From: Faunimonas pinastri
Lineage (GTDB): Bacteria; Pseudomonadota; Alphaproteobacteria; Rhizobiales; Afifellaceae
NCBI RefSeq assembly: GCF_900110915.1
Contig: NZ_FOFG01000001.1
Location: 186,001 to 250,000, forward strand
Direction: 5' to 3'
Length of the DNA stretch: 64,000 nucleotides
Positions 5,771 through 60,596 of the stretch are shown in pieces. Below the pieces are notes generated by a model that did no database searches, had not been told where the DNA came from, and worked only from the letters and a program-made list of their open reading frames with translations. Numbering within the stretch: position 1 is the first letter of the stretch; each line of letters opens with the position of its first letter. Position numbers and translations under genes: made by a program.

Positions 5771-8695
5771 ATGAGCGACAAGAAGGCGGCCACCGGCCCC
5801 GATTATTCCGAGACCCTGTTTCTTCCCAAGACCGATTTCCCGATGCGGGCGGGCCTGCCGCAGAAGGAGCCGCAGATCCTGAAGCGCTGGGAGGAGATGG
5901 ACCTCTACGGCGAACTCAGGAAGAACGCGGTGGGACGGCCGAAATACGTCCTGCACGACGGTCCTCCCTACGCCAACGGCAACCTCCATATCGGCCACGC
6001 GCTGAACAAGATCCTGAAGGACGTGATCACCCGGTCGCGCCAGATGTCGGGCTTCGATTCCAACTACGTGCCGGGCTGGGACTGCCACGGCCTGCCGATC
6101 GAATGGAAGATCGAGGAGCAGTACCGCGCCCGCGGCCGCAACAAGGACGAGGTTCCGGTCAACGAGTTCCGCCGCGAGTGCCGCGAGTTCGCCGCCCATT
6201 GGGTGGGCGTGCAGGCGGCCGAGTTCGAGCGCCTCGGCGTCGTCGGCGACTTCAAGCATCCGTACAAGACGATGGACTTCGCCTCCGAGGCGGTGATCGC
6301 CGGGGAACTGATGAAGTTCGCGCTTTCCGACCAGCTCTATCGCGGCTCCAAGCCCATCATGTGGTCGGTCGTGGAGAAAACCGCGCTGGCGGAAGCGGAA
6401 GTCGAGTACCACGACTACCAGTCCGACACGATCTGGGTGAAGTTCCCCGTCACCTCCGGCCCCCGGCATCTGCGCGGCGCTTCGGTGGTGATCTGGACAA
6501 CGACGCCGTGGACGATCCCCGCCAACCGGGCGATCAGCTATTCCGGCCGCGTGGCCTATGGCCTCTACGAGGTGACGGAGGCGGCCCCGGAGAACTGGGC
6601 CAAGGTCGGCGACCGGCTGATCCTTGCCGATGCGCTGGCGGCCGACGTGATGAAGCAGGCGCGCGTGGAGGCGTTCAAGCGCGTCGGCGACGTGACGGCC
6701 GAAGACTTCACCACGATGGTGTGCGCCCACCCGCTGCGTGACGCCGGCCTCGGCGGCTACGGCTTCGACGTGCCGCTGCTGGAAGGCGAGCATGTGACGG
6801 AGGATGCGGGCACCGGCTTCGTGCACACCGCGCCCGGCCACGGCCGCGAGGATTTCGAGGTCTGGATGTCGAACCGGCGCGAGCTGGAGGCGAGCGGCGT
6901 CGACACCACCATTCCCTATACCGTCGATGGCGACGGCGCGCTGACGAAAGACGCGCCGGGCTTCGAGGGCCGCCGCGTGCTCAACGACAAGGGCGAGAAG
7001 GGCGACGCCAACGGCGCGGTCATCGAGGCGCTGAGCGCGGCCGGACGGCTGGTCGCCCGCGGTCGCCTGAAGCATCAGTACCCGCATTCCTGGCGCTCCA
7101 AGAAGCCGGTGATCTTCCGCAACACGCCGCAATGGTTCATCCACATGGACCGCGACATTGCCGGCGAGGGCGACACGCTGCGCGCCCGCGCGCTGAAGGC
7201 GATCGAGGACACCACCTTCACGCCCGTCGCCGGCCAGAACCGGTTGCGCGGGATGATCGCCAACCGTCCGGACTGGGTCGTCTCGCGCCAGCGCGCCTGG
7301 GGCGTGCCGATCGCCGTCTTCATCAAGCGCGAAACCGGCGAGGTCCTGAAGGATGAAGGGGTCAACCAGCGGATCGTGGAGGCCTTCCGCGCCGAGGGCG
7401 CCGATGCGTGGTTCGCGGCTGGCGCCAAGGAGCGGTTCCTCGGCAACGGATATTCCGTCGATGAATGGGACAAGGTCGACGACATTCTCGACGTCTGGTT
7501 CGATTCCGGCTCCACCCACGCCTTCGTGCTGGAGCAGCGGCCGGACCTGAAATGGCCGGCGGATCTCTACCTCGAAGGCTCCGACCAGCATCGCGGCTGG
7601 TTCCATTCCTCGCTGCTGGAAAGCTGCGGAACGCGCGGCCGCGCGCCCTATGACGGCGTACTGACGCACGGCTTCGTCATGGACGAGGAAGGCCGCAAGA
7701 TGTCGAAGTCGCTCGGCAACGTCGTCACCCCGCAGCAGGTGATCGATCAGTCCGGCGCAGATATCCTGCGCCTCTGGGTGGTCACCTCGGACTATTCGGA
7801 AGACCTCCGGATCGGCCCGGAAATCCTGAAGACCAGCATCGATTCCTACCGCAAGCTCCGCAACACGGTCCGCTGGATGCTGGGCACACTCGCCCACTTC
7901 GATCCCGCGCACACGGTCGCGCCGGCCGAGATGCCGGAGCTGGAGCGGCTGATGCTGTCCGAGCTGGCCCGGCTCGATGGAGTGGTGCGGGAAGCCTACG
8001 AGGTCTTCGACTTCAAGCGCATCGCCTTCGCGCTCTTCAACTTCATGACGGTGGACCTCTCCGCCTTCTACTTCGATGTCCGCAAGGACGTGCTCTATTG
8101 CGATCCGGCTTCTTCGAAGACCCGGCTCGCGGCCCTGACCGTGGTTGACCGGCTCTTTGACACGCTGGTGGCGTGGCTGGCGCCGCTCCTGCCCTTCACC
8201 TGCGAGGAAGCCTGGCTCGACCGCCATCCGGAGGATCGCTCGGTTCATCTCACGCCCTTTCCCGACGTGCCGGCGGAGTGGCGCGACGAAGCCCTGGAAG
8301 GGAAGTGGGAGCGTGTCCGCACGGTTCGTCGCGTGATCACCGGCGCGCTGGAAGTCGAGCGTCGGGAAAAGCGCATAGGCTCCTCGCTGGAAGCCGCTCC
8401 GCGCGTCTTCATTGCCGACGAAAGCCTGCGTCAGGCGGTGGAGGGGATCGACCTCGCCGAGATGGCCATCACCAGCCAGTTGGTGCTGGAAGCAGGTGTC
8501 GGCCCGGCGGAAGCCTTCCGTCTTTCCGACGTGCCCGGCGTTGCCGTGGTGCCGGACAAGGCCGAGGGCCGGCGCTGCGCCCGCTCCTGGAAGGTCCTGC
8601 CGGAGGTAGGCGCGGATCCGGACTTCCCGGACCTGACGCCCCGCGACGCGGCCGCCATGCGCGAATATCAGGCGATGAAGCAGGCGGCGGAATGA
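5771..8695 (+). CDS. ileS: Isoleucyl-tRNA synthetase
   Basis: Class Ia aminoacyl-tRNA synthetase of 974 residues that charges tRNA-Ile. HIGH is at residues 73-76 ([10 protein letters not shown]) and KMSKS at 643-647. The editing (CP1) domain contains the threonine-rich [14 protein letters not shown]. The start is placed at the ATG preceding [12 protein letters not shown], 19 codons inside the longest open frame. The C-terminal zinc finger of bacterial IleS is eroded: [15 protein letters not shown] keeps one Cys, and the second Cys pair is replaced ([15 protein letters not shown]). It overlaps lspA by ATGA. Confidence 0.97.
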
Positions 8696-55286: not shown

Positions 55287-55979
55287 TCAGGCGAAGAGAA
55301 GCGTCGGCTCTTCCGGAACCAGCACCGGCTCCATCTTTTCGAAACAGGCCCTGACTGGGGCGAAGCTGCGCCGGTGCAGGGGCGTGGGGCCGAGCGTCGT
55401 CAGCGCGCTCTGGTGCGCCTTGGTGGAGTAGCCCTTGTGCGAGGCCAGGCCGTAGCCCTCGTAGATCGTGTCGCAGCGGGTCATCAGCCGGTCGCGAATG
55501 ACCTTGGCGATGATCGAGGCGGCTGCGATCGAAAGGCAGATCGCGTCTCCATCGATGATGGCCCGGGCGTCCACGCCGAGGCGTTTCGGCACGTCGCGGC
55601 CGTCGATGATCGCCATGTCGGCGCGATGGGAGAGGCCCTTCAGGGCGCGTCGCATGGCGGCGAGCGTCGCTTCCCGAATGTTGATGCGGTCCACCGTGGA
55701 AACGCAGCCGAAGGCGAAGGAGATGTCGGCGCAGTCACAGATCGCCGCGAACAAGGCTTCCCGCTGCTCGTGCTTCAGGAGCTTGGAATCGGCCAGACCC
55801 GGCGGAATGCAGCGCGGATCGAGCACGACGGCGGCCGCCACGACAGGTCCGGCGAGAGGGCCGCGCCCCGCCTCGTCGATGCCGGCCACCCTGCGGAAGC
55901 CATCGGCGTGTAGGCCGAGTTCCACGTGGAAATGCGGGTTCGCTCGAGATTGGGCAAGTGATTCGGCTGCTGCAACCAT
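55287..55979 (-). CDS. rnhB: Ribonuclease HII
   Basis: RNase HII of 230 residues removes single ribonucleotides and RNA from DNA. The catalytic residues are in VAGIDEAGRGPLAGPVVAAAV and in MAIIDGRDVPKRL, with AAASIIAKVIRDRLM near the centre. The start is placed at the Met of VAAAESLAQS; the longer frame upstream lacks family sequence. It converges with the atp operon. The radical SAM gene upstream lies on the same strand. Confidence 0.95.
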   Translation of the reverse strand: MVAAAESLAQSRANPHFHVELGLHADGFRRVAGIDEAGRGPLAGPVVAAAVVLDPRCIPPGLADSKLLKHEQREALFAAICDCADISFAFGCVSTVDRINIREATLAAMRRALKGLSHRADMAIIDGRDVPKRLGVDARAIIDGDAICLSIAAASIIAKVIRDRLMTRCDTIYEGYGLASHKGYSTKAHQSALTTLGPTPLHRRSFAPVRACFEKMEPVLVPEEPTLLFA

Positions 55980-56023: not shown

Positions 56024-57154
56024 TCAGATCAGGGACAATTGCCCGCCAACGGGCACGGGCGCCTTGAAGAGGTCGGTCCGCAGAGGATGCCGTTCCTTGT
56101 TGAAGCCGAGGCGCTTGGAAGCGAGCTCGAAGCGCCGCCCGATGGACCAGGCATAGGGGCCGGCCCCCCTCATCCGCTTGCCCCAGCTGGCATCGTAATC
56201 CTTGCCGTCGCGCATGGAGCGCATCACCGACATGACATGGGTGGCACGGTCGGGATAGTTCGCCTGCAGCCATTCCTGGAAGATGGGGCTGACCTCCAGC
56301 GGCAGGCGAAGGAGTACGTAGCCGGCGTTGCGCGCGCCCGAAACGTAGGCTGCCTCCAGCAGGCGCTCCAGTTCCATGTCGTTGAGCGCCGGGATGACCG
56401 GCGCCGTCATCACTGTGACGGGAATGCCGGCTTCGGAAAGCTCCTTCATAGCCTCCAGCCGCTTTGCGGGCGTGGAGGCGCGCGGCTCCATGGCGCGGGC
56501 GAGCTTGCGGTCGAGCGATGTCAGCGACAGCGCGACCTTGGCCAGCCCGCGTTCCGCCATCGGCGCGAGAATATCGATGTCGCGCGTCACGAGCGCCGAC
56601 TTCGTGACGATGCCGACGGGGTGGTTGGCGTCGGAAAGCACCTGCAGGATCTCGCGCATCAACCGGTACTGCCGCTCGATCGGCTGGTAGGGATCGGTGT
56701 TGGTGCCGATCGCGATCGTGCGCGGATCGTAGCCGGGCTCGCCAAGCTCCTTCTCCAGGAGCCGCGCGGCATCGGGCTTCACGAAGAGCCTGGATTCGAA
56801 GTCCAGCCCCGGCGACAGGCCCATATTGGCGTGGGTCGGCCGGGCGAAGCAGTAGGAGCAGCCGTGCTCACAGCCGCGATAGGGATTGATCGAGCGGTCG
56901 AACGAAATGTCCGGTGAATTGTTGCGCGTGATGATGCGCTTCGCGCGTTCCACCTGAACGACGGTCCTGATCGGCGGCAGGTCGTCGAGCGAGTTCCAGC
57001 CGTCGTCGAGGGTTTCCCTCTCCTCGGTCTCATAGCGACCGGAGAGATTCGTCTGCGCTCCGCGTCCGCGTCGCTGTTCCTGCAGGATGTCGGGCTCACC
57101 GGGCGGACCGGCGCGTCTGCCCCGGAAGCTGGCGGGCGCCTGCCGGGCGGTCAT
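56024..57154 (-). CDS. PA0069 family radical SAM protein
   Basis: A radical SAM enzyme of the spore-photoproduct-lyase-like/PA0069 group, 376 residues from this start. The Fe-S motif CxxxCxxC is in YRGCEHGCSYCFARP (about 115-130); GTNTDPYQPIERQY and GIVTKSALVTRDIDIL follow. Two further Met codons upstream (57187, 57217) are possible, but a plausible promoter reads to just before the 57187 codon. A LexA-type box lies upstream, pointing to SOS control. A DNA-repair role is suggested by that and by the family resemblance, not proven. Confidence 0.88.
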   Translation of the reverse strand: MTARQAPASFRGRRAGPPGEPDILQEQRRGRGAQTNLSGRYETEERETLDDGWNSLDDLPPIRTVVQVERAKRIITRNNSPDISFDRSINPYRGCEHGCSYCFARPTHANMGLSPGLDFESRLFVKPDAARLLEKELGEPGYDPRTIAIGTNTDPYQPIERQYRLMREILQVLSDANHPVGIVTKSALVTRDIDILAPMAERGLAKVALSLTSLDRKLARAMEPRASTPAKRLEAMKELSEAGIPVTVMTAPVIPALNDMELERLLEAAYVSGARNAGYVLLRLPLEVSPIFQEWLQANYPDRATHVMSVMRSMRDGKDYDASWGKRMRGAGPYAWSIGRRFELASKRLGFNKERHPLRTDLFKAPVPVGGQLSLI

Positions 57155-57211
57155 CGGATACGCGTCGGTGCTGCGTTCGTGAAGCATGATCCAGACATAG
57201 GTCAAGATACA

Positions 57212-57226
57212 GAACAAAGCAAGAAC
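57212..57226 (-). promoter_or_regulatory. LexA (SOS) box GTTC-N7-GTTC
   Basis: On the minus strand the sequence reads GTTCTTGCTTTGTTC, an exact match to the alphaproteobacterial LexA consensus GTTC-N7-GTTC. It overlaps a candidate -35 (TTGCTT) that is 17 bp from TATGTC and lies upstream of the radical SAM gene. A 6 bp inverted repeat (AACAAC-AGC-GTTGTT, 57224-57238) overlaps it. Confidence 0.75.
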
Positions 57227-57277
57227 AACAGCGTTGTTACTCTGGTTTTTTGTCCCTGACCCATTATCAATGCCGGA

Positions 57278-57781
57278 ATGATCAGTTTGATCCTTCAGAG
57301 TACGGAAGACCCCGAAGCGCTGGCGCGTACGCTGGCGGGCTTCGTGCCGGCTGTCGTGGAAGGCGCCGTGTCGGACGCACTGATCGTGCAGGCGGCGGAG
57401 AGAGCCGAAATCGCCGAGGTCGCCAGCGCCGCCGGTGCGGCCTTGCTCACGGGCGCGCGTCCCGCCGAGATCATCGCGGCGACGCGGGCGCCGTGGATCC
57501 TTCTGCTCGAGGCCGGGTCAAGGCTGGAGCCGGGTTGGGTGGATAGTGTCCGGCACTGGCTGGAGGACGGGCGCGGCCCCGGCTGCTTCCGGCTCGAAGG
57601 CGGCGTGTTCCGGCGAGTGGTCCCGGGCCGCAGGGGGCTCGCTCAGGGTCTGCTGATCGAGCGGGCCGCGGCAATTGCGTCGGCGCGGCAGGCGGAAGAC
57701 CTGGGCCGCCTCGCGCGCAAGGTCCGCGCGCGGCGACTGCCGGTGCGGATCAGCCGCTATCCCGCGCGGGTCAGGACCTGA
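57278..57781 (+). CDS. Glycosyltransferase-like protein
   Basis: A 167-residue protein with weak similarity to family 2 glycosyltransferases (MISLILQSTEDPEALARTLAGFVPAVVEG, then APWILLLEAGSRLEPGWVDSV in place of the usual DxD region). It is short, with no complete catalytic motif, and Arg-rich near its end. Genes like it sit upstream of moaB in rhizobia and are annotated as glycosyltransferase. A real transferase function is doubtful. Its end overlaps moaB tail to tail by 11 bp. Confidence 0.7.
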   Translation: MISLILQSTEDPEALARTLAGFVPAVVEGAVSDALIVQAAERAEIAEVASAAGAALLTGARPAEIIAATRAPWILLLEAGSRLEPGWVDSVRHWLEDGRGPGCFRLEGGVFRRVVPGRRGLAQGLLIERAAAIASARQAEDLGRLARKVRARRLPVRISRYPARVRT

Positions 57782-59684: not shown

Positions 59685-60596
59685 TCAGCTTTGTTGTTCC
59701 AAAGCCGCCCTCAGCGTCAGAAGGTCGCGCCAGGCAAGTCGCTTCTGCAGCGGCTGGCGGAGGAGATAGGCGGGATGGAGCGTCGCCAGCGCCGGGATCT
59801 CGCGGTCGCCGGCGCGATAGGTCTTCCACTTGCCGCGCAGCCGCAGGATGCCTTCGCTGGTTTCCAGCAATTGCTTGGCCGAGGCGCCGCCGAGCAGAAC
59901 CAGGAACTCCGGGTTCACGAGCTCGATCTGGCGCTGGATGAAGGGGCGGCAGATCTCGGTTTCCTGCGGGGTCGGCGTCCGGTTGCCCGGCGGCCGCCAG
60001 GGAATGACGTTGGCGATGTAGACCTTCTCGCGGTCGAGCCCGATGGCGGCCAGCATGCGGTCGAGAAGCTGGCCGGAGCGCCCGACGAAGGGCTTGCCCT
60101 GCAGGTCTTCCTCCAGCCCCGGAGCTTCGCCCACGAACATGACGCGGCCTTGCGGATTGCCGTCCGAAAAGACGAGATTGGTGGCGGTGTGGCGGAGATT
60201 GCAGGCCTCGAAGCGGGCGAGCGTCTCGCGCAGGGCCTCCAGGCTCGCGGCGGAACGGGCAGCTTCTCGCGCATCCTCCGCCGCCGCCTCGGAAGGAACG
60301 GTGACGGAACCGGTCTGGAAGACGGGGACGGCGGCCGGCTGAGCTGCCCGCTGTGGCTCGGAGCGAGGGGCCGATGGCCGGGGTTCGCCAGCGGGGGAAG
60401 GGGCACGATCAGGGAACCGGCGCTCCGGTTCTCCGCGCTCCAGGCCAGGTTCAGGCGCGGGTTCCCGTTCGTGCTCTGGCTGCAATGCGAGGCGGTCCAG
60501 CGCCTCTTCGGCCAGCGCGATGTCGACGCCCGCATCCCGATAGAATTCGAGAAGGGCGGCCAAAGCCTCGCGCACTTGAGCCTGCTGGTCCGACAT
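59685..60596 (-). CDS. Family 4-type uracil-DNA glycosylase-like protein lacking Fe-S cysteines
   Basis: A 303-residue protein. The C-terminal two thirds (about 120-303) match family 4 uracil-DNA glycosylases: [26 protein letters not shown] and the late motif LHPAYLLR. The N-terminal 115 residues are Pro/Ala/Glu-rich and variable. Family 4 enzymes carry four Cys for a [4Fe-4S] cluster, but only two Cys are present here (EACNLRH and EICRPF). It may be a cluster-free branch; uracil excision is inferred. The start is the Met of [11 protein letters not shown]. Confidence 0.85.

Follow-up and report, generated by a model that had tools for sequence, protein, structure and literature searches.

The question raised by this locus is whether a PA0069-family radical SAM gene of Faunimonas pinastri belongs to the SOS response through an operator for LexA and, if so, what that control says about the enzyme that the gene encodes. 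The window, that is, the whole 64,000-nt stretch of DNA that was analysed, had been described in a preliminary description as carrying an exact GTTC-N7-GTTC sequence on the minus strand in front of this gene, and we confirmed the match at 57226..57212. The gene, its promoter region, and its neighbors are arranged as follows.

57212..57226, minus strand: predicted LexA (SOS) box GTTCTTGCTTTGTTC, assigned from its exact match to GTTC-N7-GTTC and its conservation at orthologues.
57217..57222, minus strand: putative −35 element TTGCTT within the box spacer, assigned from position and spacing.
57194..57199, minus strand: putative weak −10 element TATGTC, 17 nt past the −35, assigned from conserved positions.
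56024..57187, minus strand: PA0069-family radical SAM gene, 387 aa (NF033668, 561.5 bits; cut-off 360).
55287..55979, minus strand: rnhB, ribonuclease HII (NF000595, 227.6 bits), 44 nt downstream of the radical SAM gene.
57278..57781, plus strand: divergent ORF, 167 aa, a conserved neighbor.

The box ends 24 nt 5′ of the likeliest ATG (57187) of the radical SAM gene. As a bare pattern, GTTC-N7-GTTC is not significant in the window, where three copies are observed versus 1.86 expected from dinucleotide shuffles, and where 26 of 100 shuffles contain at least three; the 4.2-Mb genome has 117 copies in total. A stricter form with A/T-rich right flanks, GTTCNNNNWWTGTTC, is found 14 times in the genome versus three times for a reversed control pattern. 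The two further exact matches in the window, at 5912-5926 and 60296-60310 (−), are probably due to chance; that at 60296-60310 falls within a uracil-DNA-glycosylase-like ORF.

It is conservation, and not rarity of the pattern, that raises the box above chance. Conservation upstream of orthologous genes was the check named in the preliminary description, and the claim survived it in three sets of loci. An exact box precedes the PA0069-family gene in every one of 30 loci from the same order (the window locus being one of the 30), compared with a mean of 0.27 loci of 30 when the upstream regions were shuffled and a background of ~0.012 exact boxes per region in flanking sequence. We found the exact box in 74 of the 87 loci with readable upstream DNA in a class-wide sample consisting mostly of one or two genomes per family; several of the 13 loci without it are one mismatch away. 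In a collection of titled genomes, whose titles include Agrobacterium, Rhizobium, Bradyrhizobium, Mesorhizobium, Bartonella, Devosia, and Hirschia, 71 of 80 loci have the exact box. One locus (L019) has two exact boxes upstream of its PA0069-family gene, in opposite orientations and 39 bp apart.

An alignment of 126 alphaproteobacterial loci, whose counts are not independent since many are close relatives (the class-wide sample gives a fairer picture), places the box within a promoter. The spacer of the box is conserved as TTG[ACT][TA][TA]T, with frequencies of 0.87 for T, 0.86 for T, and 0.79 for G at its first three positions. Counting from the end of the box, T is found at +12 (0.50) and A at +13 (0.62), and T is moderately conserved at +17 (0.48). 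An in-frame ATG occurs 23 to 25 nt past the box in 76 of the 126 loci, and almost never out of frame, and we therefore prefer ATG 57187 as the start codon over TTG 57217, which lies inside the box and at which the program-made ORF list begins the gene. From these positions, we infer an alphaproteobacterial promoter in which the operator contains a −35 element, TTGnnn, and a −10 element, TAnnnT, follows after 17 nt. The proposed overlap of the box with a plausible −35 is thereby upheld for the window, in which TTGCTT (57222..57217) and TATGTC (57199..57194) are separated by 17 nt; a generic sigma-70 and terminator scan flagged nothing at this promoter. With such spacing, transcription would start approximately at the A of the ATG, LexA would lie over the −35, and the mRNA of the PA0069-family gene would probably be leaderless. 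The 6-bp inverted repeat (AACAAC/GTTGTT, 57224-57238), for which a second regulator had been suggested, is indeed present. It is not conserved, with any such repeat found at that place in 5 of 104 loci versus 8% at random positions, and the second regulator was rejected for that reason.

Among members of the phylum that lie outside the class, the exact alphaproteobacterial box was found at none of 39 PA0069-family loci of beta- and gammaproteobacterial relatives. An exact CTGT-N8-ACAG, the motif that LexA recognizes in beta- and gammaproteobacteria, is found in 29 of these 39 loci, usually a few tens of bases 5′ of the gene. A further locus, L112, has TTAGTAATAATACTAA, which is similar to the Xanthomonas-type LexA motif. 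The layout of the beta- and gammaproteobacterial promoters differs from the alphaproteobacterial, leaderless-type geometry: the start codon is mostly 15 to 22 nt past the box, in some cases with GGAG between the two. Four loci outside the class that have neither LexA motif (L110, L114, L123, and L124) have in common a TGAGAC-like element ~25 to 30 nt before the ATG, which is perhaps a promoter released from LexA control. Together, class-wide conservation and the switch to CTGT-N8-ACAG lend strong support, at the level of sequence, to the LexA (SOS) control that had been proposed for this gene.

Other members of a predicted SOS regulon are found in the same genome. It encodes lexA (PF01726, 63 bits), and an exact box (C18:9372-9386) lies 60 bases 5′ of the LexA domain match. 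No exact box was found at recA of this genome, where the site GTACTTCATTTGTTC is one mismatch from the box. Exact boxes also lie 5′ of genes for an ImuA-like protein, the error-prone DnaE2, DnaE, and a TIGR03916 protein; dnaE, which encodes the replicative DNA polymerase III alpha subunit, has two of them 46 bp apart (C18:33599-33659; L006 and L007).

rnhB adjoins the PA0069-family gene in most Rhizobiales and lies downstream on the same strand in 54 of 80 titled-genome loci, with a gap that varies from an overlap to >1 kb; it may be an operon partner, which would make RNase HII coinduced. Of 77 loci examined, 46 have a homologue of the 167-aa ORF upstream in divergent orientation. This ORF had no Pfam or NCBIfam match; judged by eye, it resembles part of a glycosyltransferase.

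The box might mainly serve this divergent gene instead of the radical SAM gene, since it lies in the intergenic region that the two share, 51 nt from the ATG of the 167-aa ORF. However, the box is kept in 23 of 31 loci that lack the divergent gene, from which we assign it to the radical SAM gene, and it keeps a distance of 23 to 25 nt from the radical SAM ATG in the majority of aligned loci noted above; control chiefly of the divergent gene is thus extremely unlikely. Nor do we give more than a negligible chance to a fortuitous match in front of a radical SAM gene outside SOS control. The numbers of bare patterns expected in the window (about two), reached in shuffles, and counted in the genome would all permit such a match, but its recurrence at the same place in the order, class-wide, and titled-genome sets, along with the motif switch in beta- and gammaproteobacteria, already refutes it, barring a shared cause other than LexA. 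A third reading accepts the site as real and assigns it to a different regulator with a similar GTTC half-site. LexA binding here is a prediction, and the conservation of the spacer (TTGNWW) exceeds what LexA itself needs; the −35 inside the spacer nevertheless accounts for this additional conservation, and the same boxes stand 5′ of lexA and of TLS polymerase genes in this genome. Moreover, the change to CTGT-N8-ACAG in beta- and gammaproteobacteria is the change expected of LexA, and a site that changes with LexA type makes another regulator hard to invoke, so that we regard this reading as very unlikely.

The identification of the controlled gene as PA0069-type was correct: its match to NF033668 spans the whole model, and a Radical_SAM Pfam domain is also present. 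The nearest matches in the titled-genome collection are from Rhizobiales (Afifellaceae, Mesorhizobium, Jiella, and Aureimonas). The CX3CX2C iron-sulfur motif, C106/C110/C113, is invariant in 53 sequences. In an AlphaFold2 model of the window protein (mean pLDDT 79.4), the best structural match is spore photoproduct lyase (SPL), with a Foldseek E of 5e-10 and a VIA Z of 19.5 over 264 residues; the next family in the fold comparison is NifB (Z 15.5). When the protein or its profile was searched by sequence against solved structures, SPL was not found, and the likeness is therefore seen only through the fold search. The hydrogen donor of SPL is C140 (Geobacillus enzyme), and C140A and C140S mutants are among the PDB structures listed. 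The only three Cys of the window protein are all ligands of the cluster; across 53 relatives, no additional Cys is conserved. CTSD of SPL aligns to TNTD of the window protein in a manual motif alignment; this alignment and the absence of other Cys are the basis for equating C140 with T162, since comparing profiles with a fragment of SPL gave an alignment of no more than the first 13 residues. A VTK motif is conserved and common to SPL and the PA0069-family protein.

These comparisons divide the description of the product as spore-photoproduct-lyase-like into a part that stands, the predicted fold, and parts that do not, family membership and the catalytic cysteine. Identity as a genuine spore photoproduct lyase (SplB) that repairs the thymine-thymine spore photoproduct, as a 2012 paper discussed below supposed, would fit with SPL as the best structural match, the common VTK motif, and SOS control. 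We nonetheless consider it unlikely. The window protein scores 17.2 bits against TIGR04070 (SplB), for which the cut-off is 400, which is lower than its MoaA score and excludes it from that family, and it has no cysteine to take the part of the SPL donor; the spore photoproduct, in addition, is a lesion that occurs mainly in spores. The product probably has a nucleic acid or a nucleotide as its substrate and combines an SPL-like architecture, as modeled, with a different means of radical quenching. Regulation and predicted fold are the two lines of evidence that suggest a DNA-repair role for the PA0069-family protein.

We thus regard as highly probable a scheme in which the box serves as the operator for LexA and overlaps the −35 of the PA0069-family promoter and in which the gene encodes an SPL-fold enzyme with noncysteine chemistry. 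In the undamaged cell, LexA bound at the box would exclude RNA polymerase. Upon formation of RecA filaments, LexA would cleave itself and the promoter would open, the predicted outcome being induction of the gene. Transcription would begin at or next to the ATG and yield a leaderless mRNA, possibly extending into rnhB. The product would be a radical SAM enzyme of SPL fold, whose substrate would most likely be damaged nucleic acid or a nucleotide related to damage, with a chemistry that would dispense with a cysteine hydrogen donor. Because LexA sites are found in nearly all alphaproteobacterial and most beta- and gammaproteobacterial carriers, the PA0069-type gene very likely contributes to tolerance of DNA damage. 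A more specific and rather doubtful proposal is that the family constitutes a widespread, SOS-induced form of nucleic-acid repair with non-SPL chemistry, perhaps operating with RNase HII on ribonucleotide- or base-damaged DNA. The SOS link opens the function of the PA0069-type gene to direct testing, and the lack of the catalytic cysteine is a warning against transferring the label 'photolyase' or 'splB' from the SOS literature.

The SOS link of the PA0069-type gene is not new; the initial observation was right and its interpretation largely right. A comparative-genomics paper of 2012 predicted that LexA controls 'splB' in alpha- and beta-Proteobacteria and termed this photoreactivation under SOS control (Sanchez-Alberola et al., PMC3323433). 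COG1533 radical SAM genes are listed as SOS members in other phyla (PMC8565304, PMC7739468), gene-neighborhood work connects SplB-like proteins with SOS genes (PMC3765255), and a microarray list that places PA0069 alongside PA0669, PA0670, and uvrA is suggestive only (PMC6546240). A literature search for PA0069 together with LexA found no paper in the library that was searched. Work by Cirz in 2006 reportedly placed PA0069 within the Pseudomonas aeruginosa SOS regulon. New here are the conservation of the box across nearly the whole class, a motif switch that can be followed within one gene family, the layout of the promoter, and the findings that speak against calling the enzyme a lyase.

Among known systems, spore photoproduct lyase (PDB 4FHC and mutants) is like the window protein in its CX3CX2C motif, overall predicted fold, and VTK motif, and differs in its C140, which is without equivalent here, and in a family score for the window protein that is far under the cut-off. 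The closest NCBIfam neighbor is the Rv2578c family (NF038135), in which the window protein scores 221 bits, below the cut-off of 430; it is a separate family. Within the same genome, the TIGR03916 gene (rSAM_link_UDG; 577.8 bits; UDG-linked, 'putative DNA modification/repair') is likewise a radical SAM gene with an exact GTTC-N7-GTTC and would be the second SOS radical SAM gene of this genome. It belongs to a different family from PA0069; its box, GTTCTTTATTTGTTC at C22:128175-128189 (L041), is in the opposite orientation and 13 nt 5′ of the ATG, and a ribosome-binding-like GGAAGAGG indicates that its mRNA is not leaderless, unlike that proposed for the PA0069-family gene. The SOS COG1533 genes of Bacteroidetes, Balneolaeota, and Gram-positive bacteria likewise place a radical SAM gene of this broad type in a LexA regulon (PMC8565304, PMC7739468), with other LexA motifs and with a subfamily, Rv2578c or other, that may differ from PA0069. 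A close precedent is the LexA-regulated splB of PMC3323433, with a predicted LexA site before a radical SAM gene of the COG1533 type in Rhizobiales and further groups; this splB is almost surely of the same gene family as the PA0069-type gene. That paper covered multichromosome species only, whereas we traced the box across the class and the beta- and gammaproteobacterial motif outside it, described the geometry of the promoter, and question the photolyase label.
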